Origin: Limnoperna fortunei
Taxonomy: Eukaryota > Mollusca > Bivalvia > Mytilida > Modiolidae
NCBI GenBank assembly: GCA_944474755.1
Contig: OX104119.1
Coordinates: 83,704,896-83,768,895, forward strand
DNA length: 64,000 bases
Direction: 5' to 3'
Shown here: in pieces, positions 26,161 through 55,278 of the stretch
How positions within the stretch are numbered: the stretch's first letter is position 1
Layout of the letters: the number at the start of each line of letters is the position of its first letter
Program-made: the position numbers and the translations under genes
The notes under the pieces: model-generated
Databases searched by the model: none
Told to the model about the DNA's origin: nothing
Seen by the model: the letters and a program-made list of their open reading frames with translations, nothing else

Positions 26161-26168
26161 AAACCTCT
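26161..26168 (+). repeat. Left target-site duplication of the 15-kb element
   Basis: AAACCTCT lies immediately outside the left terminal GTAGCAACC. The same 8 bp follow the right terminal GGTTGCTAC at 41,150-41,157. Confidence 0.8.
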
Positions 26169-28200
26169 GTAGCAACCGTTAATGTAATAACAACCGATCA
26201 TGTAATAAACTTTTAAAATATTTTTTTGACATATTGTAATAAACTCAGTAGGTTATTTAAAAATACCTGATCGTAAAATACACCTTAGGTTTATCTTAGG
26301 CTACGCAAACATTTTTTTTTTAATTCTTAAATTTATTACATTAACGGTTGAGACAGTAACCGTTAATGTAATACAACACCCAAATGCGTCAAAACTCAAT
26401 TTTACTAGGAAAGATTGTAATATAAACGTTTATGCTATTGAATAAAAGTTACTAAAGGTCTGGATTCAACATAAAAAGATTTCAATGTTTGAAATTTTTA
26501 GTTTATTACATTAACGGTTGAGAATGTAACCGTTAATGTAATACAACACCCAAATGCATCAAAACTCAATTTTACTAGGAAAGATTGTAATATAAACGTT
26601 TATGCTATTGAATACAAGTTACTATAGGTCTGGTTTCAACATAAAAAGATTTCCAGGTTTGAAATGTTTAGTTTATTACATTAACGGTTGAGAATGTAAC
26701 GGTTAATGTAATACAACACCCAAATGCATCAAAACTCAATTTTGCAAGGAAAGATTGTAATATAAACGTTTATGCTATTGAATACAAGTTACTATAGGTC
26801 TGGTTTCAACATAAAAAGATTTCCTGGTTAGAATTTTTTAGTTTATTACATTAACGGTTGAGAATGTAACCGTTAATGTAATACAACACCAAAATGCATC
26901 AAAACTCAATTTCACTAGGAAAGATTGTAATATAAACGTTTATGCTATTGAATACAAGTTTCTAAAGGTCTGGATTCAACATAAAAAGGTTTCAATGTTT
27001 GAAATTTTTAGTTTATTACATTAACGGTTGAGAATGTAACCGTTAATGTAATACAACACCCAAATGCATAAAAACTCAATTTTACTAGGAACGATTGTAA
27101 TATAAACGTTTATGCTATTGAATACAAGTTACTATAGGTCTGGTTTCAACATAAAAAGATTTCCTGGTTTGAATTTTTTAGTTTATTACATTAACGGTTG
27201 AGAATGTAACCGTTAATGTAATACAACACCAAAATGCATCAAAACTCAATTTCACTAGGAAAGATTGTAATATAAACGTTTATGCTATTGAATACAAGTT
27301 ACTAACGGTCTGGATTCAACATAAAAAGATTTCAATGTTTGAAATTTTTAGTTTATTACATTAACGGTTGAGAATGTAACCGTTAATGAAATACAACACC
27401 CAAATGCATCAAAACTCAATTTTACTAGGAAAGATTGTAATATAAACGTTTATGCTATTGAATACAAGTTACTATAGGTCTGGTTTCAACATAAAAAGAT
27501 TTCCAGGTTTGAAATGTTTAGTTTACTACATTAACGGTTGAGAATGTAACCGTTAATGTAATACAACACCCAAATGCATCAAAACTCAATTTTGCAAGGA
27601 AAGATTGTAATATAAACGTTTATGCTATTGAATACAAGTTACTATAGGTCTGGTTTCAACATAAAAAGATTTCCTGGTTTGAATTTTTTAGTTTATTACA
27701 TTAACGGTTGAGAATGTAACCGTTAATGTAATACAACACCCAAATGCATCAATACAACACCCAAATGCATCAAAACTCAATTTTACTAGGAAAGATTGTA
27801 ATATAAACGTTTATGCTATTGAATGCAAGTTACTAAAGGTCTGGATTCAACATAAAAAGATTTCAATGTTTGAAATTTTTAGTTTATTACATTAACGGTT
27901 GAGAATGTAACCGTTAATGTAATACAACACCAAAATGCATCAAAACTCAATTTCACTAGGAAAGATTGTAATATAAACGTTTATGCTATTGAATACAAGT
28001 TACTAAAGGTCTGGATTCAACATAAAAAGATTTCAATGTTTGAAATTTTTAGTTTATTACATTAACGGTTCAGAATGTAACCGTTAATGTAATACAACAC
28101 CCAAATGCATCAAAACTCAATTTTGCAAGGAAAGATTGTAATATAAACGTTTATGCTATTGAATACAAGATACGGTAGGTCTGGATTCAACATAAAAATT
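26169..28200 (+). repeat. Left terminal inverted repeat with 11-unit 170-bp array
   Basis: After about 160 bp of unique terminal sequence, a palindrome with arms TATTACATTAACGGTT and AACCGTTAATGTAATA recurs. Its core starts at 26341, 26511, 26681, 26851, 27021, 27191, 27361, 27531, 27701, 27892 and 28062. Spacing is exactly 170 bp except for one 191-bp step, caused by a 21-bp duplication (ATACAACACCCAAATGCATC plus one base) near 27,740-27,770. Units differ at a few sites (GGATTCAAC or GGTTTCAAC; CTAAAGG or CTATAGG; CACTAGGA or GCAAGGA). Confidence 0.95.
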
Positions 28201-28284
28201 TGCGGAAAAAAAGAATAATAATAATCTGAAGAAAAACAACAAGTCTTCACATTGGAAATGGTAAAGACCTTAATTATGATTCAA

Positions 28285-28400
28285 CCCACTGTATTTTGCA
28301 CGGTCAGGCTTTCCGTATTATAAACTGAGAACCCAGCTACTAGGGGATTCACCGAGTCTGCAGGTTAAACACTGACAACCCTCCCAGTTTGATCCCGGTG
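28285..28400 (-). repeat. Fragment of (CAAT)n-tailed SINE family
   Basis: The minus strand contains TAATACGGAAAGCCTGACCG preceded by GGGAGGGTTGTCAG-type sequence. This is the central block shared with the copies at 31.2, 31.6, 32.3 and 37.1 kb. Confidence 0.6.
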
Positions 28401-28439
28401 TAAGTAAATAATGACAAGCACAAATAAGAACAAGTGTGG

Positions 28440-28880
28440 ACTGTGAGCACGCTCACAATGGGATACCCACGCTTCGCTTCAAGTCCAATTATCTCCCCTG
28501 AATAATATCCGACAGCAACGAAAATTCTGCATGCATATCTACACATGATATACTTCCTTCATGTAAAGTTTCATCAAAATCTGTCAAACGGTTTAGGAGG
28601 AGTTGCGCTTACGAGGTCTTCCACTGAATACTTTATTTAAAAAGTCTAAGTCCAATTATCTCCCCTGAATTATGTCCGACAGCGACGAAAATTCTTCATG
28701 CACATCTACATATGATGTTCTTCCTTCATATAAAGTTTCATCAAAATCTAGCGGTTTAGGAGGAGAAGAGCATACAAGGAATGTTGACAGACGGACAGAC
28801 AGTTGACAGACGGACAGACAGACAGGGTTATTCCTATATACCCCCCCCCCAAAACAAGTTTGCGGGGGTATAAAAAAGGC
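28440..28880 (+). repeat. Dispersed repeat with two tandem modules and GACAGACGGACAGAC end
   Basis: Two modules each contain CAAGTCCAATTATCTCCCCT (or near), CGACAGC.ACGAAAATTCT, CATATGATGT-like, CTTCCTTCAT.TAAAGTTTC and ATCAAAATCT, then GGTTTAGGAGGAG. The second ends GTTGACAGACGGACAGACAG and TATACCCCCCCCCC. GTGAGCACGCTCACA sits at the start. The design is the same as at 13.9 kb. Confidence 0.75.
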
Positions 28881-28924
28881 ACCTATTAGACTTTCATCTT
28901 TATCTAAGATTACATGTGACAAAA

Positions 28925-30365
28925 CAATTGCAAAAAATGTAATACATTTATTGTTTATTAACCCAGAGTATTCTTTTGTGCGACATATAGGTTCTGATAA
29001 ATAAAACTCAGTTATACAAATGAAATATTGGGGTTTCTTTTATTAAAAAAGACCATGCTGTTTGGTGGGATTATTTAGATATAATTTTGGTAAGGGATCT
29101 TCCAATGCATTTACACGCAGATATTTCAAATTGGCAAAGTGATAATAAAGTAGAAGAGTTTTAACTTTTTTGTATACCAATATAAACCTAATTTGTATAT
29201 TCGTAAATATCGACAACTGTATCGGTTTATCGATTTTTCTAATCCTACAAAATGTTCTTTCTATTTATACTACAGTTGAAATTCGACTTTTTCTGCTGAA
29301 AAATAAAAGACTTTGCCAATTTAGACTTTCTATTTTTTTTTAGTAATGGCGACCTTTTCCAATTGGTAGTGTAGTGAATGTGTTTAACATGTTTTGAAAA
29401 TTTTAATTGATAATGAAAAAATAACCATGACGTCTGAAAAATCAGCATCTTAATTTTCAAACTATTTTGACTAAGAGTAACACTACAGGACGTGTGCAAA
29501 GTTCGGAACATCTGATACCACCCTGTGGTCGGCATATTTGTTGCTTGTGTTATAGTGCGTTTCCTGTTAGCCTTAGTATTTGAAAATGTATTTTTTATTA
29601 GTATCGATACCTCCTGATTACTATATTTTTGTCTTAGATATGTGGCCATATTGTGATGGCCACAAAACATTCTTAAAACATTGCCCTGCAGACACGTGCA
29701 TTCCCTCTGAGTAAGAAAATCTTTGGCTTTGTACAGGACTACAAGATATGTTTACAGACAACAATTACTTGGCAACAGCTGTCGTTACCATTACGATCAG
29801 ATGTAAGATGGGCTATAAATATATGAACTTGTGTGTGGTGTGGTGTCCAACCGTTTTCGTCGGCAGACCAGCTCACATACTACAGTAATGGAAGCGAGAG
29901 GTTTGGCATGCCATAAAGCCTGGTTTGACCCACCATTTCTGTTGAAATGCTTGTACCAAGTCAGGACCATTACAGTAGTAGCTATATTTTTGGTTGTTGA
30001 TTCTAAAGTTTGCAGGTTTCTTGGACTTTGATTTGTGGATTGTCTTTTTTGACAGTTTCCTTGGTGTTCGGTATTTTGTTACAACCTTCATTTCAAAATG
30101 CCAAAATAAGACTGATTAAAAATATAAATAATTGCTCATACAAATAAATTTTAGAAAAGTTGTTCGTACACAGCTTATGTTATGACAAATTCTGAAGTCA
30201 AAGATGGAAATAACTGCTTCAAACTGTCTAGAAGAATATGCGAATGGTTCAATATTGTACGTAATATTAACACGAAGTGCGGGTAAGCAAGTATATTGCA
30301 ATCATCCACGCGAGGTTTACAATCTAACCGTACGGAGACTGCAATTACTGATCGTTAGCTGTAAT
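28925..30365. other. No gene; one dispersed repeat inside
   Basis: This interior segment of the 15-kb element shows no recognisable domain. The minus ORF at 29,245-29,670 (141 codons) is Ser/Lys/Asn-rich and unfamiliar. The repeat at 29,870-30,100 is listed separately. Confidence 0.4.
29870..30100 (+). repeat. Dispersed repeat copy 2
   Basis: Direct-orientation partner of 25,440-25,705, better preserved over GGCATGCCATAAAGCCTGG and TGTGGATTGTC. It lies inside the 15-kb element. Confidence 0.65.
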
Positions 30366-30370
30366 AATAG

Positions 30371-30665
30371 TTGATTGATTGGTTGCCAGCGAGCAATATT
30401 ACAGCTATATCAAGGACGAGAACAAGTTAACAAACAATAAATTGTGTTAAGATAAATTTCAGTTTTCATTCCTAATACTGGGACAATTACCGGCACAAAA
30501 TCCAACTGTACTGACTGCCTAACCTGACCCCAGGTAGCAGAAAGGGGAAGCACTTTTATATGGAGGTTGCGTGGTAATAATACTTAAAGTTTAACATCAG
30601 ACCTGAGTGGCTGACATATTCGGAGACAACCGCGTTCCTTGTGTTTTAAAGACCTCTATTTAAAA
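30371..30665 (-). repeat. (CAAT)n-tailed SINE copy, diverged
   Basis: On + it begins TTGATTGATTGGTTGCCAGC, the complement of the family tail, followed by GAGCAATATTACAGCTATAT and CGAGAACAAG. It ends near CGCGTTCCTTGTGTTTTAAAG. It is more diverged than its neighbours. Confidence 0.6.
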
Positions 30666-30879
30666 ATTTTTTCGAAAATTAGTAGCTGTACAGTTGTCAT
30701 TAAATAAGGTACAAATTTACTTCCCTATCCTACTCTTCATACTGTACTAGTGGGAGTTAGATTTCCAATCCACCGCATTAGTTCATTCCATCTCGGAAAT
30801 TAAAGTTTGTTTTTGCCTGCAAAAATGACCCGTACCCCAAATTGTCCATGTATGGTAAAATGTATGTAAACAATGGAAG

Positions 30880-31180
30880 TTGATATTGTGCCCTCAATCC
30901 ATACCAAGTTTCATAAAATTTCGTTAGCAGCTTCAGATGAGTTGCGTTCACAAGCTGATTTGGTGGCATAATTGTGAAATTTCGGAAAATCAAGGGGTGT
31001 AAATCCCACAAAATATACCGGATAAAAAAATCGTTGCAATATGCCCAACTGTATATGGTGCCCTCAATCCATACAAAGTTTCATAAAATCATTTCAGTAG
31101 TTTCAGAGGAGTTCACTGAAAAAAATGTAGGACAGACGGACAAGACAAAAACAATACATCTCCCCACCAAAGTGGGGGAG
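30880..31180 (+). repeat. Dispersed module repeat, third example
   Basis: The module TGCCCTCAATCCATAC.AAG, then TTTCATAAAAT and CAG.AGTTG, occurs twice. It is followed by GGACAGACGGACAAGAC and a CTCCCCACCAAAGTGGGGGAG inverted repeat. The layout is the same as at 13.9 and 28.4 kb. Confidence 0.65.
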
Positions 31181-31224
31181 ACATAATTAATTTATTGATT
31201 TTTTTTTCTTAACTGGTCTAAGAC

Positions 31225-31600
31225 TGATTAAAGCTGCTGGGCCCATACTGTGAGGGTTCTAAGTACTTGACACATAGAGCTGCCCAGTGCGTCCTATCGT
31301 TTAAGGGTTGCCAGGTTATCATACGGAAAGCCTGGCCGTGGACCATAATGGATAGCGCGTTAAGATAGTACCGCGCTCCTTGAACGATAAAGACCCCTTT
31401 TGTAGATTTCGACAAAAAAGAAGGTTCATTGTTAAAGGATAATTCTCCGTCTTTACCAAATGCTTCATATTTCTCCAGTGGATGTAAACAAAATTAGTTC
31501 CCGTTGGTCCATCCCTTATCATCGTTGAATTGTTGTTTGTACACTTGTTCTCGTCCTAAATATAGCTGAACTATTTGCTCGCTGGACGTTAAAATAAAAT
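31225..31600 (+). repeat. (CAAT)n-tailed SINE copy, 5'-truncated
   Basis: It contains the family blocks ATACGGAAAGCCTGGCCG, CGCTCCTTGAACGATAAAGA and GAACTATTTGCTCGCTGGAC followed by GTTAAA. The (CAAT)n tail has decayed. Confidence 0.7.
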
Positions 31601-31634
31601 TTAATCAAAAAATAATAAAGCTGAAATACTGCTT

Positions 31635-31998
31635 GATTGATTGATTGGATGGATGTTTGTTTTACGTCCAGCGAGCAGTACTTCAGCTATATTCAGAACG
31701 AGAACAAGAAAACAACCAATAAATCAACGTGAAAAGGGGGCGTTACATAACGAATAAAATTTAGACTGACAACGGAAAAGTATGTAGTATTGGGTAGGGG
31801 CGGGGAGTCTTTATAGTGCAAAGAGTGTGTCACTCTCCAAACACATCACCCAATACAGTCCGCGGCCAACCTTTCCGTATTAAGACCCGACAACCCCCTC
31901 CCCCTTTTCACAAGAAGGTCTCTCTTATACGCTGTCCGGCGACCCGCTGGGCTGTTCTGTGGGTGGGTAGAGCACTGGGAACCCTCCCAGAATGGTCA
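31635..31998 (-). repeat. (CAAT)n-tailed SINE copy
   Basis: On + it begins GATTGATTGGATGGATG and TTTTACGTCCAGCGAGCAG, then CTATATTCAGAACGAGAAC. It ends with CCAACCTTTCCGTATTAAG and CCCTCCCAGAATGG. It lies tail-to-tail with the copy at 31,225-31,600. Confidence 0.7.
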
Positions 31999-32309
31999 CA
32001 GTTTAATCAATTGAAAATTTGCCTACATGTATCACATATTTTTCAAGCAGCCCACACCATGAAAACATGCAAACAAATGTTTATGTTTATGAGTTTTCTT
32101 AAGACATTATGGTGCCAACGGCATAAACATGTTGCAAAATGTTTGCATTTGTGTGATTTTTTGACGTATTTAATTACCGAGTTAATTAGAATGGAAATAC
32201 GTGATTGTATTTGAGTCATCAAAAATTGGCAGATTTCATGTCCGAGGTGTTTTAATCAAATATCATTTAGACAAAATTTGATTATAAAACGTCATTTCAG
32301 TATATTTTG

Positions 32310-32823
32310 GCCCCGTGCGGGATCCGGGTGGCTAAAAGAATAGACCGCAGTCGCGCTAGCTTGTCGTAAAAGGCGACTAAATAGCGCCCAGTACCCTGAC
32401 CGGCGTGTCAGGTCGGTTTGCCTAAAGACCGACTGGGATGTGTGCCCCAGGTGGTTGAATGGGGTACCCCTGGCAAGCTGGGGTTGTCAGGCCATAATAC
32501 GGAAAACCTGACCGCAAACCATATTAGTGCACCGTGTTGGGAAAAATGCCACGTTCCTCGCACGTTAAAGAACTATGCTGTAGTATTCGCTACGAGTAGG
32601 GATTTCGATCCCGCTACAGGAGGCTAAATTGCCCGACCCTATCCACCCTCCCATTTGCCAGTGGCAATCTAAAATCCGTTACCCCTATTTTTCCTTGTGT
32701 CCCATCCCATTTTCATTCATCATCATTTCATGTTCATTTTATCATCCATTTCATGTTCATCGCCTGGATATAGCTGAAATATTGCTGCTCGGGCGTTAAA
32801 CACCATTAATCAATCAATCAATC
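32310..32823 (+). repeat. Full-length (CAAT)n-tailed SINE with 11-bp target-site duplication
   Basis: AGTATATTTTG lies directly before GCCCCGTGCGGG (32,299-32,309) and directly after the CAATCAATCAATC tail (32,824-32,834), so both ends are fixed. The 514-bp copy defines the family: a GC-rich head with CTTGTCGTAAAAGGCGACTA and CAGGTCGGTTTGCC, then the ATACGGAAAACCTGACCG block. These are followed by a B-box-like TTTCGATCCC and GATATAGCTGAAATATTGCT near the end. The head is not an obvious tRNA. Confidence 0.85.
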
Positions 32824-32839
32824 AGTATATTTTGCATTG

Positions 32840-34220
32840 AAAATGCTTAATATCACTTCAATTTATTCATTTATTTATAAAAAAATAAAGTATAATATTT
32901 TGCGCCCCTCCAATATCATGATGTCCAATACATCTGTTAGGTCATCTTTTTGGTGTTTAAAATACTATGCAGAGTTACAGGTTGGCAATTTCTTTTTATT
33001 ATGTTTGTCTCTTGTACTTTATTTACATCGTTTTATTATAACTACACTATATTAAAAAAAAATAACGCTTTAAAGTTTTGTCCATTATGTCACATTCCCT
33101 CCTGTTACCACTACCTAATTTTTCTATTATAAAGCACATTAATGACTCTGATTTATGTTTTCATAATGCATTACAATTACATCACTTCCTGCAGCCATTT
33201 TAATGACAACAAAAGTTTAAGAAGCGGGGTGTTTTAAAAATCCATGATCATCCAAGGTAAGATTTAACATAAGGATACTTTGTGTTGTTCTGCCCTGTTA
33301 TGGTGGTTTTATTATTATTTTGAAATGATTTTTATGATTTAAATCAATTATTATCTCTGTTTTTTGGAACATTTTGAAAATACCATGAGCGACATGAAAT
33401 ACACTTAAACATAATTTAAATAAATGAAACAAAGTATTGCATAATTCCTTTCTGTTACTTTCCTTTATGTTGCTTGTTAAAAAGTAACAGGAAAGATAAA
33501 ATAGAAACATGAATGAACATCTTGATTATAATTTTCAATTTTATTTATTTCTGTCTAATACTGGAAAGAATTTTATTTTCCTTTTTGAAAACCATAACAC
33601 AACCTAACAAATACTGGAGTAAAATTTTATTTATGTGATTTAATTCTTTTAATTGGTCACTAAATTATTTTACCTTGGTCACAGAACAGAACCAAATCAG
33701 TAACAGGAAGGATGGAAGAGTATAATCTATTGATGTAATACATTTTTTAAACCCTATCTGGCAAAACTTTTGTTCATTCAATTCTAATTTTTACAAAAAG
33801 AAATACTATATTGTAATTTAAGGTACAGATATAAGGAAAATATGTTTAGTAACAGTAAAGAAATTATAAGTAACAGCATAGAGAATATGTATACATGGTA
33901 ACATAAAGGAATTTAATTATTATATTTTATTGATTTATTACAGATAGAAAATTGTGAAGCAAAGGGAAAAAAGAAACACAGTCCTTTCCAACAGGTAGTC
34001 TATCCTTTTTTATAACAGTCGTAAAGTATTTTTTATTAGAAAGTTAAAAAAAGATTTGTAACGGTTACAGCAAGGAAAATTAATCATTTAGTTAAATACA
34101 TAGATGCTTTTTCTTGAAGTGATTTAAAATCAAATACCATGAGTGACACTGGAACTTGGTACTAAGACTGGTACTGCCAAAAGATAAATATTACCTTTCC
34201 AACTTAAACTAATTAATTGT
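32840..34220. other. No gene; upstream region of the transposase
   Basis: AT-rich, without domains. CTTTCTGTTACTTT and AAAGTAACAGGAAAG at 33,448-33,495 form a 14-bp stem with one mismatch. Further AGTAACAG motifs lie near 33,701, 33,850 and 33,872. This may be the 5' flank, promoter or intron of the transposase gene. Confidence 0.4.
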
Positions 34221-34223
34221 ATT

Positions 34224-36276
34224 TTGTTAACAGATAAGGCTTTTAGTGTCTTTGAAAAGCACAGAAGACACAGACAAAGGAGGGATGCAGATCCTAATCG
34301 CATACAACAATATCTAGAAAAAGAAAAGACGAAATACAGAGATGATCTTGCATTAGGGAAAAGAAAAAATGTTGCACAAATGTCTAAAAGAGAGAAGAGG
34401 ACTATCAGGAAAAGAAGAGGAAACAAAAGCAAGAACTTAAAGAAAGAACAAAAATGTTAGAAAATCTAGAAACTCCTCCTGTCTCTCCATCTCACCAATC
34501 AGAACCTGTGCCGTCAACCTCGACTAGATCTTCAAAAAAGCTGATTGAAGTAGAAAACAAACAGAAGACATCAAGAAACACTAAAAACGAGAGTGCTAAA
34601 AAGGCAAAAGTTTCGAAATGCTACAGAGATTTAGCTAAGAAGAATTTCAGATCAAGATTCTCAAGAAAAAAGTTAATTTCTTTAGAAAGAAATGTGAAAG
34701 AGAACAAAAGAAAACACGCACAATCACACAAGAACCGCCCACACCGAGAAAACTAACAAGGAACCTTATGAAGAGGTCAGAGAAAACCAGAAGTCATACT
34801 CTTTTATTTCATCACACAATGTTAGCTCAGATGAGGAGAGACAAAAAAGAAGGAAAGAAATACACGATGAACCTTTTTACTGGACAGTTACTTCGCAAGT
34901 ACAAGCTTAAAACCAAAGCACTCAAGACAATTGGCTTTAATTTTAGAAGAAAAACTAGAAATACCAAAGGTTCTTTAAGTTCTCGTTTGCATATGTTCTT
35001 CAGTTTCTACAAAGAGATGATGTTTCAAGATTAACATCAGGAAAAAAGTCAACTATAACCCGTAATGACATTAAAAAACAGAAAAAGTTGTTGTGTGATA
35101 CAACGAAAAATCTACATGACAAATATATAGCAGAAAATCACAATTTTCAAATCAGCTATTCCGTATTAAAAAACAATGATATTATAGACACAAACAATCT
35201 GTCAGAGCTTTTCAAAAGGGTTGTCTGCAGTACTTTGAATAAAAACTGCATGTATGGCATGTGCAAACCGTGTTATGGCAAGAAAGTTATCAACAGGACG
35301 ATAACAGAGAACACGAAAGTGACATGGAACCAGTGGACAAGTGTAAAAGAATCAAGAACATTTAGGACAAGTGAAGAAAAAGAAATTAATCTGATAAAAA
35401 AAGGAAGTGAAGTGTGGATCCATAAAGACAGTAATACAAGAGTTTGAAAATGCCCTAAAACCTAAAATTACAAAACACTTTTATAATATTCAAAACCAGT
35501 TTTAGTATTACAAACAGCTGAAAGAAGAACTTACTGATGATGAATGTTTAATACACATAGACTATGCAGAAAACTATATTGTCAAACTTCATGAAGAAAT
35601 CCAATGTGTTCATTTCGGGGCTTCGCAGCCCCAAATTACTTTAAATACTGGTGTGTACTTTATTAAGGATCTACCTAGTGGATCAACATTTTGCACTTTA
35701 TTCGACTCTCTTGAGCATGGACCTACAGCTGTGTGGACACATATTCGACCAGTTTTTAATTACATTAAGGCAAAGTACCCTTATATTACCTTTTTACATT
35801 TTTTTAGTGATGGACCTGTGACACAGTACAAGCAGAAAAAGAACTTTTATTTACTTTCAACCGAGATCTTTATACTTGGGTTTGAAGGCGCCGCCTAGAA
35901 TTTTCACGAACGAAGCGCTTCAGGTCATTGAAAAGGCATTCCTGATGCCGTGGGCGGGAGCCTGAAAGGAACAGCAGATACACGGGTCAGATTTGACGAA
36001 GATGTGACATCTGCAGCAAAGTTTAAAGAAGTCTTAGATAAAACAGGAACTAATGTTACACTTTTTGTTACTGATCCACAAGATGTCAAGCTTTTTGAGG
36101 ACCAATATGCTGCATTGTTAAAGCAGATAAAGGCAATACCAAAAACATTGCAGCTTCATCAAATTAAAAGTTCATCTCCTTCTACTGTCGTATACAGAGA
36201 TATTAGCTGCTCGTGTGGTTTTAAGGAAAGTACAATATGCAAAGGTCATGAATTCAAGAAAAAAAATTTCGTTTAG
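34224..36276 (+). pseudogene. DDE-type transposase of unassigned superfamily (frameshifted)
   Basis: Successive + strand pieces in changing frames make one protein. The first is a Lys/Arg-rich N-terminal domain (34,224-34,440: FEKHRRHRQRRDADPNR, LSK-like MSKREKRTIR). A basic linker follows to about 35,030. At 35,088-35,447 there is a Cys motif (NCMYGMCKPC) and VTWNQW. At 35,530-35,640 is IDYAENYIVKLHEEIQCVHF, whose Asp I take as the first catalytic residue. At 35,653-35,898 is FFSDGPVTQYKQKKNF, the likely second Asp, and at 35,890-36,000 HEKGIPDAV then GGSLKGTAD. This HxKGxxDxVGGxxKRxAD series is familiar from uncharacterised invertebrate transposase-like proteins; I cannot name the superfamily. 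At least four frame changes and one stop (after 35,898) make it a pseudogene. It sits centrally in the 15-kb element and is the obvious source of its mobility. Confidence 0.7.
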
Positions 36277-36336
36277 AGCCCAATTCGACTGCTGACAGAA
36301 GTAAAATCTCAAAACCAAAGTTTACAGAGGGTAAAG

Positions 36337-37055
36337 ATGTATCCGAGGACCATACAGAAACTGAAACTGACAAAGAAAATGTGGGAGATTGTAATACAAA
36401 TCTTTCTGAAGAACGAAATGAAAACTTATGGACACAGTTTCTCGAAGCAATATGTCATTGTAAAGACTATGCAAGTTTTAAAGAAGAATGCAAAAGAATT
36501 CAGATGGAAGATGTTCAAGGACAAGAACGTTCTATTTTGGAATGCAAATCTACAGTTGACCAAAAAACTAGGTTGTGGAAGCCTATTCATATATGGAGAT
36601 GACAGTCATGCTAGTGAGATAAGATTGAGAATCATCTTAGAACTTGTCTTACATGAGAAATATTATATGGACAGAAAAAATTTAAAAGTAACCACGTCAT
36701 CTGGCAAAACAAGAGATCTAAGAAAATCTTTTGCAATGTACTCTGAGGTTTTTATGCCTGGTATACATCTAAGCCAGAAACTTATGTAAGCTATATATCA
36801 ACAAGAAATAATGAGCATTGCAAAACCCCAAAAATATATGGGAATGTGGCAGATGTTTGGACTCTAGTGTTTTGAAAATGAACATTTTTTCCTGCTATCC
36901 AAAACTAGGAAATCCCAATGTACGTGAAGATTTACATCGACAGATTAATCCAAGATCAACATAACAGCAACAAGTGTAGCATTTATCATGTGGAGTAGCA
37001 CTCGATCCGATATGGTTGCAAATCACTGGATGCCCAATCACTTTTTGGCAATGCT
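36337..37055 (+). pseudogene. OTU/vertnin-like domain, degraded
   Basis: The + strand reads LGCGSLFIYGDDSHASEIRL, RIILELVLHEKYYMD and SFAMYSEVFMPGIHLSQ. After a stop comes QQEIMSIAKPQKYMGMWQM. In the next frame comes CYPKLGNPNVREDLHRQINP, and then FIMWSSTRSDMVANHWMPNH. This order, ending in a W-[ST]-x-T-R and HW.PNHF block, is that of vertnin-like proteins and related OTU-fold cysteine-peptidase-like domains. The usual catalytic D-G-x-C stretch would be at LGCGSLF and looks altered or deleted. The domain follows the transposase in the same orientation. The SINE at 37,055 begins a few codons after HWMPNHF. Whether it was one polypeptide with the transposase cannot be told. Confidence 0.5.
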
Positions 37056-37460
37056 ATCCATTGACAAGATCTGGGACCATACTGGGAGGGTTTCAAGTGC
37101 TCGACCCACAGAGCAGCCCAGCGCGTCCCCTGGTGGAGGATAGGGGAGACCCTCTCGTTGGGGAGTTGTCGGGTCATAATACGGAAAGCCTGACCGCGGA
37201 CCGTAAGGGTAACGTGTTTGGAGAGTGCCACGCTCCTTGCACGATAAAGACCCTTTTGTAGATTTCAAAAAGAGTAGGCTCATTGTAGCCGCTACAAAAG
37301 GCTAAATTTTCCACCCCTACCCAAAACTCCATATTTTTCCAGTGGCAGTCAAAATTGTATTCCCTGTGACCCATCCCACCCCCATTTTCCGTTGATTTAT
37401 TGTTTGTTAACCTGTTCCCATCCTGAATATAGCTGAAATACTGCTCGCTGGACGTAAAGC
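37055..37460 (+). repeat. (CAAT)n-tailed SINE copy between OTU-like and F-box-like coding
   Basis: It contains GGACCATACTGGGAGGGTTT, ATACGGAAAGCCTGACCG, CGCTCCTTGCACGATAAAGA and GAATATAGCTGAAATACTGC, then TCGCTGGACGTAAAG. The ends are truncated, with no clear tail or duplication. Confidence 0.75.
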
Positions 37461-37469
37461 TGGACGCCC

Positions 37470-37913
37470 CCACCAATATTTAGCGAAGAAACTGAAAGGT
37501 GTGAATCTGAAACTGTGTTGTTTGCTCAACAAAATGATGCCTCTCCTTTTCTGCCAAATCTTGTACTAGAGGAGATTTTCAGAATAAGTGTCAGACAGGA
37601 ACCAACAATGATGTTCTGCTTACAACATGTATGTCAGTTTTTTCATGCTTTAATTAAGTCCATAGGTTATCCCAGTTTGTACATTCGCCACACACAAATG
37701 TCATATGTTCCAGAAGTAATAAGCGTCCGGCGTTTGATTATGGCCTTTGGCAGAAATAGCGGACTTATGATAAGTGTCAGGGAAATATTAAATGCCTACG
37801 GGATCTACTCAAATCTTTTTCAAGTCAATGTAATTAACGCCATAATTAAGGTCACAAGACACGTAGGTGCCCCGATGCTGCAGTCTGGACATTTTGATAA
37901 TATTTCATCTTAA
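37470..37913 (+). CDS. F-box-like ORF carried by the 15-kb element
   Basis: The frame is open from about 37,476 (Glu/Ser-rich lead) with Met at 37,515, and ends at 37,913. Residues about 13-50 read LPNLVLEEIFRIS, LQHVCQFFHALI and PSLYI. That fits the F-box pattern (LPxxVLxxIF...L..VC..FH.L), a 40-residue module that recruits Skp1 in SCF ubiquitin ligases. A second half (ISVRRLIMAFGR) is unfamiliar. It has no substrate-binding repeats. It is an uninterrupted 132-codon frame beside badly decayed coding, which suggests younger age or constraint. It could be an exon of a larger gene or a captured host fragment. Confidence 0.5.
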   Translation, partial: PPIFSEETERCESETVLFAQQNDASPFLPNLVLEEIFRISVRQEPTMMFCLQHVCQFFHALIKSIGYPSLYIRHTQMSYVPEVISVRRLIMAFGRNSGLMISVREILNAYGIYSNLFQVNVINAIIKVTRHVGAPMLQSGHFDNISS

Positions 37914-37919
37914 ATTCGA

Positions 37920-38785
37920 ACACATTTTCGATTAATATATGCATACGTACGTAGCTATTATTAGCCACTGTGGACTGTTTTCGTCCAGAAATATTTTTTG
38001 CCACGAATATGTCAAAGCTTCGTCCTAAATAATAGAATAAATACATCAGGCCAGAAAGAATGTCTCCCTGTTTGCCATGCAAATCTTAAACCCGGCAAAA
38101 GGTATATTGTTTTCTTAGTATTGCCAGTACAGTAAGATAGAGTGTCATACACGGCCCTACTCATTACCCCGTACTTTTCAGTGGTAGTTAAAGTTTTGAT
38201 CATGTTGTCCTACCCATTTTTTTTTTTGTTTGACTTATTCTTCTGATTGGTCTTCACAAACTTATGAAGATTCAGTTGATTTAAAGGAATTTTGATTCTT
38301 TCGACGATGAATTTTGTCCATAGTAGCTACCGAATCTCCTGCTCAGCACTTTATCTTGTCTACCTCTTCGTGTGTAATTTTGTCGGTATTGCCCAAATGC
38401 AATATCACTCATCCTGGTACTTCAAGATGTTACTTTTTGGATGCTAATGGTAGGGTTTCCAGTTTCCAGCAATTGGATCGTACATTTTATTGTTAAGCAT
38501 CATGCCTACCATTCTAGAAAATCCATCCACTTTTCTCCCTGTTTAATCTGTGAATTTCACGTTCCCTTTCACACAGTCGATGCAAACGTCCATCTTCTTT
38601 AACGTGTCTTTAATGTCGATCGCGTCTAACTACTTTGTTTTCAGACATAAAGTAAGCTTTCTGGTTATTTGTTACACAAATCCAATGCATGATCATGTTA
38701 CTTTAGTGGTGACTTGCAACATAATTTATCCATTCATTGATATAATCATTCTTTACATTCACTGCCTCGCACATTAACAAAAATT
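37920..38785. other. No gene recognised inside the right end of the 15-kb element
   Basis: Two short + strand ORFs (38,314-38,496 and 38,550-38,777) have no recognised domain. The array begins at about 38,780. Confidence 0.4.
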
Positions 38786-41149
38786 CAAACCAGGAAATCT
38801 TTTTATGTTGAATCCAGACCTTTAGTAACTTGTATTCAATAGCATAAACGTTTATTTTACAATCTTTCTTAGTGAAATTGAGTTTTGATGCATTTTGGTG
38901 TTGTATTACATTAACGGTTACATTCTCAACCGTTAATGTAATAAACTAAAAAATTCAAACCAGGAAATCTTTTTATGTTGAAACCAGACCTATAGTAACT
39001 TGTATTCAATAGCATAAACGTTAATATTACAATCTTTCCTTGCAAAATTGAGTTTTGATGCATTTGGGTGTTGTATTACATTAACGGCTACATTCTCAAC
39101 CGTTAATGTAATAAACTAAACATTTCAAACCTGGAAATCTTTTTATGTTGAAACCAGACCTATAGTAACTTGTATTCAATAGCATAAACGTTTATATTAC
39201 AATCTTTCCTAGTAAAATTGAGTTTTGATGCATTTGGGTGTTGTATTACATTAACGGTTACATTCTCAACCGTTAATGTAATGAACTAAAAATTTCAAAC
39301 ATTGAAATCTTTTTATGTTGAATCCAGACCTTTAGTAACTTGTATTCAATAGCATAAACGTTTATATTACAATCTTTCCTAGTAAAATTGAGTTTTTGAT
39401 GCATTTGGGTGTTTTATTACATTAACGGTTACATTCTCAACCGTTAATGTAATAAACTACAATTTCAAACATTGAAATCTTTTTATGTTGAATCCAGACC
39501 TTTAGTAACTTGTAGTCAATAGCATAAACGTTTATATTACAATCTTTCCTAGTGAAATTGAGTTTTGATGCATTTTGGTGTTGTATTACATTAACGGTTA
39601 CATTCTCAACCGTTAATGTAATAAACTAAAAAATTCAAACCAGGAAATCTTTTTATGTTGAATCCAGACCTATAGTAACTTGTATTCAATAGCATAAACG
39701 TTTATATTACAATCTTTCCTAGTGAAATTGAGTTTTGATGCATTTGGGTGTTTTATTACATTAACGGTTACATTCTCAACCGTTAATGTAATAAACTAAA
39801 AATTTCAAACATTGAAATCTTTTTATGTTGAATCCAGACCTTTAGTAACTTGTATTCAATAGCATAAACGTTTATATTACAATCTTTCCTAGTTAAATTG
39901 AGTTTTGATGCATTTTGGTGTTGTATTACATTAACGGTTACATTCTCAACCGTTAATGTAATAAACTAAAAAATTCAAACCAGGAAATCTTTTTATGTTG
40001 AAACCAGACCTATAGTAACTTGTATTCTATAGCATAAACGTTTATATTACAATCTTTCCTAGTTAAATTGAGTTTTGATGCATTTGGGTGTTTTATTACA
40101 TTAACGGTTACATTCTCAACCGTTAATGTAATAAACTAAAAAATTCAAACCAGGAAATCTTTTTATGTTGAAACCAGACCTATAGTAACTTGTATTCAAT
40201 AGCATAAACGTTTATATTACAATCTTTCCTTGCAAAATTGAGTTTTGATGCATTTGGGTGTTCTATTACATTAACGGTTTACATTCTCAACCGTTAATGT
40301 AATAAACTGAACATTTCAAACCTGGAAATCTTTTTATGTTGAAACAAGACCTATAGTAACTTGTATTCAATAGCATAAACGTTTATATTACAATCTTTCC
40401 TAGTGAAATTGAGTTTTGATGCATTTTGGTGTTGTATTACATTAACGGTTACATTCTCAACCGTTAATGTAATAAACTAAAAAATTCAAACCAGGAAATC
40501 TTTTTATGTTGAAACCAGACCTATAGTAACTTGTATTCAATAGCATAAATGTTTATATTACAATCTTTCCTTGCAAAATTGAGTTTTGATGCATTTGGGT
40601 GTTGTATTACATTAACGGTTACATTCTCAACCGTTAATGTAATAAACTAAACATTTCAAACCTGGAAATCTTTTTATGTTGAAACCAGACCTATAGTAAC
40701 TTGTATTCAATAGCATAAACGTTTATATTACAATCTTTCCTAGTAAAATTGAGTTTTGATGCATTTGGGTGTTGTATTACATTAACGGTTACATTCTCAA
40801 CAGTTAACGTAATAAACTAAAAATTTAAAACATTGAAATCTTTTTATGTTGAATCCAGACCTTTAGTAACTTGTATTCAATAGCATAAACGTTTAGATTA
40901 CAATCTTTCCTAGTAAAATTTAGTTTTGACGCATTTGGGTGTTGTTATACATTAACGGTTACTGTCTCAACCGTTAATGTAATAAATTTAAGAATTAAAA
41001 AAAAAATGTTTGCGTAGCCTAAGATAAACCTAAGGTGTATTTTACGATCAGGTATTTTTAAATGACCTACTGAGTTTATTACAATATGTCAAAAAAATAT
41101 TTTAAAAGTTTATTACATTATCGGTTGTTATTACATTAACGGTTGCTAC
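38780..41149 (-). repeat. Right terminal inverted repeat with 13-unit 170-bp array
   Basis: This is a mirror image of the left array. The palindrome core starts at 38911, 39081, 39251, 39422, 39591, 39761, 39931, 40101, 40271, 40442, 40612, 40782 and 40952 (spacing 169-171). It then runs into the unique terminal segment that matches the left end in inverted orientation, including CTACTGAGTTTATTACAATA. The array has two more units than the left. Unit variants (AGTGAAATT, GCAAAATT, AGTAAAATT) are interspersed. Confidence 0.95.
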
Positions 41150-41157
41150 AAACCTCT
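41150..41157 (+). repeat. Right target-site duplication of the 15-kb element
   Basis: AAACCTCT follows GGTTGCTAC and matches 26,161-26,168. Confidence 0.8.
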
Positions 41158-48753: not shown

Positions 48754-50364
48754 TCACGGTCCTTTCCACGGACTACTTAGTTTTTTGTTCTTCCCAACTA
48801 CTTGTGCTGTATCTAGCACGTATACTAGACCTCCAATCTTATATTGATGTCCAAAGATTTTAATGTCATAGTCACGTTTCATTTTGTTCTGAGTCGTATT
48901 CAAAGTATTTCTAGCAATCTCGTGAGATTTGCGAATAGCAGTTTCCAACCTTGCTATATATTCATCACTTCCTGTATACAATTTCTCCTGTCCATGCGAG
49001 AACATGAGTTCTGCCGGTTGATTTGTCTCTCTTCCTAACATAAGCTTGTTAGGGGAAAATCCTGTATTTCTATTCACCGATGAGCGTAAAGCTCCAGCTA
49101 ATTAAGCTATGTGCTCATCCCAATTGTCCTGGGAGCCATCCACAAAACAACGAACGGCGTCCATGAGGACTCTATTTTTTTCTCTCAACTTGACCATTCG
49201 CCGACGGTCTATACGGCGTTGTCCTAGCCTTATATATTCTCAACAATTCACAAACTGATTTGAAAAGTGAGCTTTCAAAGTTTCTCCCTTGATCGGTAAA
49301 TATTTGAAACGGATACCCAAACACGGTAAAAAATTCGTTCATTGCTGCTCTAGCCGTTACTTCCGCAGTCTGGGACGGTAACGGAATGCACTCTGTCCAT
49401 TTTGTAAACTGATCCACCATCATGAGTATGTACTCATTGCCATTCTTGGTCTTCGGCAACGGTCGCATAAAATCAAGATGTACACGCTCCATCGGTGCAC
49501 CCGCATGGTATTGCGTCATCTTACACTACAAATGTCACATGTCACTACAAAGTTTCTAATTTCCTTAGACATGTTGTACCAATGGTATTTCTGTTTAATC
49601 CTAACCATTGTGCGTTCGGTCCCTTGGTGACCGGCTGACGGTAACTCATGACAAAGTTCAAGTACCTCTCCCCTTAGGCTAGCAGGGACAACCAACCTAG
49701 TTCCCGCTCCCTCCTTCTTGGGATGGTTCCTCAAGATTCCTTGCTCATCTAAATAAAACATAGACTTATTTATATAATAATTCTTAGCTGCTGGTGATGC
49801 TAAAAATAGTACATTGTCCGGTGGTTCTATCTTGTCCTTGAGCCAAGTCAAGATAATCTTCAAATCTGGATCCCCAGATTGTGCTAGTTTAATTTCATCA
49901 TTACTGAATCCACTAATCAGTAATCCTCCTTCCTGTGACACGGCTGTCACAGTGTAATGATTTTCACTTTCAGTTAATATCACTGGTCGGTTACCAGAGC
50001 ATATGTCCATGCTTGTGGTAAACAAGATATTATCTGCACTTTCCAACGGTGTGTTCGATTGTTCATCATCACTGTATAATGTTATCAGTGCTGTAGCAAA
50101 GTCCTGAACAGGTTTATCTCTGCACTTCCTGTTTCTAGTCAGAGATACTGCTTCGTCAACTTCGTACGTAAATTTATTCCATGTACGGTGTGCTCTCTCA
50201 CACGTAGTACAACCTCTGCAAGGTAAGTCCGATAACTCCAGTTCAGCCTGGAAACCTGGGCATGGCACCTCACTTTCTCCTATCCGTGAAAGTCCATCCG
50301 CGTTTCCGTGGAGTCTACCTGAACGGTGTTTAATGTTCATATCATACTGACTAAGTTCTTCCAT
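48754..50364 (-). pseudogene. pol: Integrase region of pol
   Basis: The tail of RNase H (NADGLSR) is followed by an HHCC zinc domain, with HELPSAGHQG and CDIC near 49,690-49,520. After a small frame overlap comes the catalytic core, 49,519-49,172: VHLDFM (first Asp), IFTDQGRNFES (second Asp) and PSANGQVERKK (Glu). The frame breaks at 49,172 and resumes at 49,077 with SPNKLMLGRE and the GPF/Y-like SSPWKGP. The DD-35-E residues are all still visible. At least three frame changes and a stop at the core start disable it. Confidence 0.85.
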
Positions 50365-53109: not shown

Positions 53110-53900
53110 GGAGGGTATCCTGACTGTGAACCAGTTTGCTTAAACTGTTGATTATAGGGTTCAGCCCTTTGTTGTTTCAGCTGGTTCAGCTCCTTCGACA
53201 TTGCTGTCATGTTGTTTGTCATAGCTGTCATGTGGCTAGACATAGCTGCCATGTTCTGAGCTAATGTGTCCGTTATTTTCATTAGGTTCGATGCCATTGA
53301 TTTCACTTCATCCTTCAGTGAGCTAATTTGTTCCATATTACCATCTGGCTTCTTGCCATAGACCCGTATTTTAACTCGTTCATCGTCCGTAACCATAGGG
53401 CTACCATAGTTCACTGTTGTATCAGCTTGAGTAGCATCGATTGCTTTACTTGTCTCTTGAAAGTACTTTATAATGTCCAATGCTTCATCCAATGTCTTGG
53501 GTCGAGCATGACAAGCATGTTTCGCTGCTTGCTAATCCATACATTCTTGACAAAAACGGTCAATTACGGTCTGATTGACAAACTCTTCAGGCACTCCCGA
53601 GAAGGCTCTTACTGCTAAAAGCTGTAATCGGTCGGCCCATTCATCCAAACTATCGTCTTTCCTCTGAGCACTATTGTTGAACTCTGCTCTCAATGTTTGC
53701 GGTAACTCCTGGTACCCAAAACGTTTTTCAATTTTACGGATTACCTTCTCATAGGTAATGTCTGGATCCTGATCAAGCAATAAAGTGTATGACACTTGCT
53801 TCATTTTCAAGGCACCAACAGACTCCGTTTTTCCTGGTCTGTCAGTCTGTTGACTGTTGAATATTCCTGGAACTTCCGGAAGAATGATCGCCATGCTGCT
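53110..53900 (-). pseudogene. gag: Gag core and coiled-coil, part 2
   Basis: From 53,894 the frame reads on through YEKVIRKIEKRFGYQELPQT and SLDEWADRLQLLA to FCQEC, a typical Gypsy gag (capsid C-terminal-like) series. One stop follows at about 53,532. The same frame then continues LDEALDIIKYFQETSKAID (53,492) and a Met/Asn-rich heptad region (SHMTAMTNNMTAMSKELNQL) predicted to be a coiled coil. It ends SQSGYPPR at the TRIM insertion. Confidence 0.75.
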
Positions 53901-54745
53901 TTATTCTTTCCTGTGAATTTCAAATTTTTCGGTGTTTGCAACGTTCTCGTCTGAGACTTAGGGTTCCTACCCCTGAGGTATCTACGCAGTAAATCTTCCG
54001 ATGAAGAACCTCTCACCTGTCTATACTGTTGTGACATACGACTAGGCCTTTCCTGTTTACTATCTGTATCCATTCTAACTATACTAGACGGTGCTCCTTG
54101 CACGGACATTTCCTCAAAAGGTATCGACGTCGGTGGAGTATAATACTCTACTACTGAAGTACTATGTGATCTGGGAATGGGGTTCACACCATGTCCCTGT
54201 TGTATTATTCCCTGTACGCATTGGCCTAATCTTCCTCCTTGTTGATAGAGGTGTTCATGTTCCCTTTGTAATTTAGCAACCTTTTGTTGTAACTGTAAAT
54301 ATTCATGCTCCAGGTTCCAATACTGATCCTGTAATTGTTTCCTTTCAGTATACAAATGTTCACGTTGAGCCTCTTGTTCCAGCAACGATTGCTGCTCAGG
54401 CGCCCTTTGTTGACTTTTTCGATCAACAAATGATGCTAACTGTTCTACCCTTCCTGGTAGCTGTTGTTGTTGTTGTTGATTTTTTCGGTCACACAACATG
54501 TCTTGTTGAACATGAATTACTGACTGTTGGTAACTTGGTAGTTCAAAATACCTCTGTTGACGGTCTTCAACATCCTGTTGACGTGTTCTCTCAACATAAA
54601 AATCTTGTTGCTCCTGTTGTTGATCAACGACTATCTGTGGTTGTTGCTGAAATCCAACTTTTTGTTGTCTTGGTTGAATGCCAGGTGTTTGTTGAGGCAG
54701 TTGTTGACGGTGTTGTTCTAGTTGATCACTAATGACATGTTGCAT
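53807..54745 (-). pseudogene. gag: Gln-rich and coiled-coil gag segment
   Basis: A 312-codon minus-strand frame. The first ~140 residues are Gln-rich repeats, then QLQDQYWNLEHEYLQLQQKV forms a long coiled coil. A Ser/Arg-rich linker follows, and finally LKFTGKNKAAWRSFFRKFQE, the start of the gag core. A one-base shift near 53,880 leads to the next piece. The frame also differs from the preceding Gln-rich ORF, so an indel lies near 54,730. Confidence 0.7.
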
Positions 54746-55278
54746 TTGTTGAAATGGTCGTTCGACAAACGTGGTTGTTGTTGACTTGGTCCGTCTATAT
54801 TCGACTGTTGTTGATAAGGTCTATCCACATACATGTCTTGTTGTAGTTGTTGACTTGGTCTATCAACAAATAAATGCTGTTGAAACGGTTGTTGACTTGA
54901 TCTGTCAACCACAATCGCTTGTTGAATCTCAAGTTCACGACTTGGTCGGTCACCAAATATCGGTTGAAACATATGTTGATGTTGTTGACTTGGTCGGTCC
55001 ATCATCATTTGTTGTTGTTGAACTTGTTGATGCATTGGCTGGTCACCAAACATGTACGGTTGTGGTTGTTGACATGGTCTATCAACGGTTGTGTGTTGTT
55101 GAAACTGTTGTTGATGTTGTCGATCAACAACTGTGTCCTGTTGCGGTTGTTGACTTATTCGGTCAACAAGTGAATGTTGTTGTTGAAGTTGTTGACATGG
55201 TCGGTCAACGGTTGGTTGTTGTTGTTCAAATGATAGACTCAGTTGGTCCTCAAGCGTATCATATTGTTGGCTGAGCAT
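54746..55278 (-). pseudogene. gag: DRPxQQ repeat region of gag
   Basis: The minus strand encodes about a dozen irregular repeats of 15-20 residues around (V)DRPxQQxQQ, for example TVDRPCQQPQ and MMDRPSQQHQ. The repeats are visible at DNA level as TTGTTG-rich + strand sequence. Such low-complexity Gln repeats are unusual in gag and suggest self-association. The + strand frames here (Val-rich) are antisense shadows. Confidence 0.75.

Follow-up and report, generated by a model that had tools for sequence, protein, structure and literature searches.

Introduction

Foldback transposons such as Tetris (PMC4079207), Galileo (cited there) and Tm1 (PMC3169594) have long inverted repeats in which a unit, of ~220 bp in Tetris and 14 bp in Tm1, is repeated in tandem a variable number of times; they are flanked by duplications of 8–10 bp, with Mutator- or P-type enzymes or none known. 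According to the accessible part of the Tetris article, most array-ended elements of this kind are assigned to Mutator, Galileo (P) is among the exceptions, and for some no enzyme is known; Galileo units hold extra transposase sites and satellite arrays grew from Tetris units (PMC4079207). Other DNA transposons use an integrase-type DDE core. In IS3EU and GingerRoot this core comes with no detected H2C2/HHCC zinc domain and with 6-bp duplications; ends are always TA..TA in strict IS3EU, and mostly TA..TA with occasional TG..CA in GingerRoot (PMC10045372, in which the words OTU and protease are absent and whose accessible part does not mention end arrays). Ginger1 elements have TGTNR ends, inverted repeats of 40–270 bp, 4-bp CCGG/CCGT duplications, an H2C2 zinc finger, a YPYY motif and, in several families, an integrase with a C-terminal OTU domain; arrays are not mentioned in the accessible text (PMC2836005). 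Here we describe an array-ended mobile element in a 64,000-nt stretch of the 1.34 Gb Limnoperna fortunei genome (C9:83704896-83768895, hereafter the window). We conclude that it very probably belongs, as a defective copy, to a cut-and-paste family (family E) that is mobilized by a DDE transposase of integrase type bearing an OTU domain. An initial annotation, made from the letters of the window, had pointed to such an element; its observation is confirmed and its interpretation partly supported.

Results

An array-ended element with a 6-bp target duplication

The window element (copy E0) is ~15 kb long and spans positions 26168–41150, one base beyond 26169–41149 on each side, as determined by arm pairing: over their outer 872 nt the arms show 97% complementarity, and the pairing extends out to 26168 on the left and 41150 on the right. 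With the bounds shifted in this way, the proposed DNA transposon with matching termini (TGTAGCAACC...GGTTGCTACA) and a target duplication was borne out, as were its mirror arrays of ~170-bp units, initially counted as 11 and 13 (Table 1), the right one being inverted. The duplication itself is not of 8 bp as first claimed. The string AAACCTCT is present at both flanks, its outer A/T positions being those of the element at the other end; we assigned the outer T and A to the element because both persist even where the target differs, which leaves a target duplication of 6 bp, AACCTC.

Of 134 candidates from a genome search with 232 bases of the left end, 40 were scored and held 259 matches; 12 family E places were examined, the window copy and E1–E11. 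An exact 6-bp repeat flanked TGTAGCAACC...GGTTGCTACA in 8 of the 12 and an exact 8-bp repeat in three; of the four places without exact 6 bp, E4 and E9 have decayed ends, E10 a 4-bp match and E11 a match at 5/6 positions. The same tips also bounded elements of 375, 714 and 1145 bp. The check that the initial annotation had called for thus succeeded: other copies share these ends and differ in array length, their duplications being of 6 bp and not 8.

Array units carry the tip motif

Family E has an 18-bp motif in two tandem copies at each tip and as an inverted pair once per 170-bp array unit. Counted as a 16-base motif with at most two mismatches, it occurred 26 times forward and 26 times reverse in the window element, making 52 of the 53 occurrences in the whole window. 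The arrays, regarded from the outset as reservoirs of transposase sites, are thus rich in the tip motif, and its copies there would be putative sites of the enzyme. Array length differed among copies, with 0–12 full unit-to-unit intervals on the left and 0–18 on the right (single or decayed units scored as 0). We compared 133 units drawn from 11 of the 12 places examined: the two motifs diverged by 1.7% and 1.1%, and the rest of the unit, taken without motif and anchor, by 5.2%. On our reading of the family E units, the motif stands directly after TGTA and resembles the tip minus GCA, an arrangement that would fit sites which are bound and not cut.

A related family holds open integrase-OTU frames

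Copy E5 (C4:71.1M) contains part of a further gene, in which the OTU match is weak (E 0.016, under the Pfam cut-off). Related open frames were observed at C4:51.5M (868 aa, read as sequence) and at C10:11.3M (865 aa, known from the match table only). The 868-aa protein matched rve (PF00665, E 4.8e-12) and OTU (PF02338, E 6.1e-9), both above the Pfam cut-offs, and has D159, D222 and E257; at E<=1, Pfam matched in it neither Integrase_H2C2 nor any Mutator, P or hAT family. Searching proteins with this integrase-OTU sequence returned 52, among which 38 were set apart at E below 1e-38; a precomputed OTU domain is present in 30 of these 38, with coral, echinoderms and fish as named sources. A 99/98 branch of a 53-core integrase tree separates 39 rows of this protein group, some without an OTU call, from 13 retrotransposon-type rows, with a single, very long-branched bacterial row on their side.

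Pieces of this gene persist in family E. E5 aligns in pieces to residues 304–868 of the 868-aa protein, whereas E0, E1 and E11 match residues 752–842; OTU gene pieces also occur in family E copies at C4:82.6M and C6:41.7M. In the window, the matching segment (37530–37802, 49% identical) lies in the open reading frame 37458–37910 that had been described as F-box-like. A Pfam search of this frame gave no match, so the F-box is without Pfam support; the frame corresponds to the C-terminal remnant of the integrase-OTU transposase.

An array of 202-bp units adjoins the 868-aa frame and characterizes a second family, family 2. The unit has 468 matches genome-wide. Among the matches listed, 11 interiors were array-flanked on both sides, all 11 as − left and + right, and two of them hold the open frames of 868 aa (C4) and 865 aa (C10); the left array of the C10 copy is 7.2 kb long. 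A typical 202-bp unit carries three motif copies one way and one the other way. Family 2 tips read TGTAACAACCCGTTTTGCAATAACAACC..., with ends TGTAA..TTACA versus TGTAG..CTACA in family E, and the tips of both families match at 31/42 bases without gaps, a score equalled by 0/20000 shuffles. Exact 6-bp duplications flank both open-frame copies, GAGGTC at C10 and TACCAA at C4. We take integrase-OTU to be the likely driver type, because its gene is open in family 2 between similar tips, 6-bp duplications and the same array design.

Tips face each other and target sites share a G/C core

A tip pattern covering both families gave 199 genome matches when up to two mismatches were allowed; its reversed control gave 0. 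The 100 tips listed, 36 of family E and 64 of family 2, were analysed for pairing: adjacent tips no more than 35 kb apart formed 28 facing, 0 diverging and 4 same-strand pairs, each facing pair lying within one family. The initial annotation also suggested that the arrays could seed free satellite DNA; of 33 family 2 array clusters, picked by eye among the matches listed, 22 had one of the tips listed no more than 5 kb outward of them.

We then fetched the junctions of 19 further pairs, namely all those listed and unseen before plus C4:82.6M. Fourteen showed an exact 6-bp duplication, three a 5/6 match and two no match, bringing exact duplications to 24 of 33 over all end pairs. In the exact duplications the two middle bases were both G/C in 21/24 and the third base was G/C in 24/24, target sites being otherwise varied in sequence. 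This core was first noticed in ten duplications; it recurred in 11 of the 14 later ones, compared with a two-base frequency of 0.12 in the window flanks. Finally, the C10 family 2 copy has a natural empty site: it lies within a 28-bp minisatellite, and when the sequences on its two sides are fused with a single copy of the duplication, they match neighbouring units.

Several family E copies have more complex structures. At C12:52106979-52139574 (L025–L028), four left tips spaced by 5.67, 7.0 and 5.67 kb are followed by a single right tip, a series that is the product of tandem duplications of the element's left part; partial copies are clustered on C12. A 31-kb copy at C4:82622788-82654242 (L063) has an outer duplication matching at 5/6, and its OTU gene piece adjoins reading frames that we take to be Maverick/Polinton-like. 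In the E9 copy (L021, C5:77.39M), a retrotransposon with a 930-aa open frame, presumably Gypsy-type, sits inside the element.

Other contents of the window element

Coordinates are collected in Table 1.

Table 1. Features of the array-ended element in the window
Feature	Position	Strand	Basis
Left target site duplication, AACCTC	26162–26167		
Left terminus TGTAGCAACC, terminal segment before the array, with tandem 18-bp motif	26168–26331	+	
Left array, 10.9 units of 170 bp, inverted tip-motif pair in each	26332–28198	+	
Internal region without long reading frames; parts common to several other copies	28199–34187		
Pseudogene of second DDE transposase, vertnin-like C-terminal part; frameshifts and three in-frame stops in catalytic domain	34239–37065	+	tblastn pieces
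RNase H-fold DDE domain of this pseudogene, DD32E pattern	35416–36270	+	
Interspersed repeat between pseudogene and integrase-OTU remnant, several diverged copies in element ('SINE-like' as label only)	37071–37458		
C-terminal remnant of integrase-OTU transposase	37464–37910	+	
Right array mirroring the left one, 13.1 units of 170 bp	38779–41000	−	
Right terminus ...GGTTGCTACA	41001–41150	−	
Right target site duplication, AACCTC	41151–41156		

The DDE-type transposase noted in the initial annotation is present, although broken, and is probably a passenger belonging to another transposase group rather than the driver. The vertnin-like part of what had been termed an OTU/vertnin-like domain is real, but it is the C-terminal part of this same DDE protein. 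Gene pieces match residues 13–1056 of a 1361-aa relative in E0, E1 and E11 and part of that range in E2; the gene is also present at C4:82.6M, and its stops are found again in other copies. Its closest open relatives, L034/L035, differ in their termini and have what look like 4-bp duplications (two copies only).

Together with L059–L062 (C13:61.19M, C14:19.75M), L034/L035 form a second DDE transposase group, Pfam-less and with a vertnin-like C-terminus. The elements are 7.46 kb long, with inverted repeats of 29–32 bp and the apparent 4-bp duplications just mentioned. The domain has 113 matches in the genome, a number of them within open frames of 800–900 aa, and 332 related proteins come from animals and metagenomes.

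Inside the element, positions 28481–28821 hold two diverged copies of a ~136-bp repeat and then a 19-bp tandem repeat. Outside it, the − strand at 49178–49504 shows integrase-core similarity (31% over 113 aa), perhaps of a retrotransposon, and 53197–55224 contains several tandem repeats whose periods are 21 and 42 bp.

Discussion

A model of movement and its alternatives

A simple model of family E movement would have the transposase recognize the 18-bp motif, in tandem at the tips and in inverted pairs in the array units. The arrays would then serve as long, multi-site binding platforms, perhaps assisting in the assembly of the protein or in bringing the two ends together, while cutting would take place only at the outer tips; insertion yields the 6-bp duplication with its G/C core. 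The window copy would be moved in trans by enzyme made elsewhere, because it is without the integrase core and keeps only the C-terminal end of the transposase. Elsewhere, OTU domains act as deubiquitinases, and one may guess that here the domain shields the transposase.

The roles could also be reversed, with the DDE/vertnin transposase as the element's own enzyme and the integrase-OTU pieces as passengers. Its gene has a DDE-type fold and lies in pieces in several family E copies, yet its closest open relatives differ in termini and apparent duplication length, and what stands between family 2 arrays, with similar tips and 6-bp duplications, is integrase-OTU frames and not this gene; we therefore find such a reversal unlikely. 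The terminal design, tandem units in inverted repeats, is likewise that of Tetris, Tm1 or Galileo, and the 8-bp string flanking the window copy would suit a foldback element of Mutator, P or hAT type. A 6-bp duplication is in itself compatible with these groups, since the accessible parts of the sources give 6 bp for hAT6 (PMC12730594) and 4 to 10 bp for the IS256/MuDR group (PMC10045372). Nevertheless, the duplication here is 6 bp, versus the 8–10 bp of those foldback elements and typical of the groups apart from exceptions such as hAT6 (exact 8 bp in 3/12), and the associated enzyme is built on an integrase core, so that this origin is highly improbable. That satellite DNA or a segmental palindrome merely resembles a transposon is the least probable explanation, to the point of being hardly tenable: the units are satellite-like and partial copies do cluster on C12, but the tip count, the excess of facing over diverging pairs among the tips listed, the target duplications and the natural empty site all speak for transposition.

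Several observations weigh against movement by the integrase-OTU enzyme with arrays as its platforms. Nine of the 33 end pairs are without an exact 6-bp duplication (four of the nine match at 5/6). Another 16-bp window of the unit diverges by just 1.27%, so motif conservation is not clean, and five units taken from E4, E9 and E10, which are old copies, give divergences of 10% and 1.25% for the motifs and 7.8% for the rest. Apart from the motif, the 170- and 202-bp units resemble each other no more than expected by chance. The integrase core was seen in no family E copy, the link between this family and the enzyme consisting of C-terminal remnants and family 2. With these points taken into account, we retain movement by an integrase-OTU transposase as the very probable account of family E.

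Relation to described systems

The initial annotation knew of no described superfamily with this combination; array-built inverted repeats themselves are known from foldback Tetris and Tm1, at least in the parts of the two articles available (PMC4079207, PMC3169594). Long inverted repeats of variable tandem-unit number place the element in the foldback structural class by design. By published descriptions, the lineage comes nearest to GingerRoot within IS3EU/GingerRoot in duplication length, in having no detected zinc domain and in its TG..CA ends, and nearest to Ginger1 in its TGTNR ends (here TGTAG, TGTAA) and OTU domain. The 6-bp duplication is that of IS3EU/GingerRoot, and the family 2 protein has the rve DDE core with no HHCC zinc domain detected upstream. 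The TG..CA ends speak against strict IS3EU, but not against GingerRoot. As in Ginger1, where OTU or Ulp1 lies C-terminal to the integrase, the family 2 protein has its OTU domain (PF02338) in this position; in contrast, neither the 4-bp CCGG or CCGT/ACGG duplication nor H2C2 (no match at E<=1 in the family 2 protein) was found.

Dada was also considered. Its 6–7 bp duplication agrees, but it is defined as having no terminal inverted repeats (PMC3706591, accessible part), whereas those described here are long. Dada is also defined by insertion into small RNA genes; the target sites observed here vary. Helitron-borne satellites of the Pacific oyster resemble the arrays in that satellite-like units, some of 164–166 bp, are carried by mobile elements; they differ in that the array is short and lies centrally in a rolling-circle element, compared with mirror arrays at the ends and target duplications here (PMC8268682, accessible part).

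Our broadest interpretation, offered tentatively and at somewhat less than even odds, is that these integrase-OTU DNA transposons form an animal lineage not yet described, distinct from strict IS3EU and from Ginger1. Such elements would inherit, as functional components of their ends, arrays of satellite size made of paired transposase sites, and the lineage would make and spread new satellite families. The arrays might be rebuilt under selection, because two families with units of 170 and 202 bp and of different sequence keep design and tips.

Array-built ends here go together with open integrase-type transposase genes, in family 2, which shares design and tips with the window's family but not the sequence of the unit. 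One genome thereby makes two old questions testable, the role of arrays in transposition and transposon ends as a source of satellite DNA. Since array length varies among copies, it could be compared with copying success. The arrays illustrate one route for satellite-like DNA to travel through a genome.

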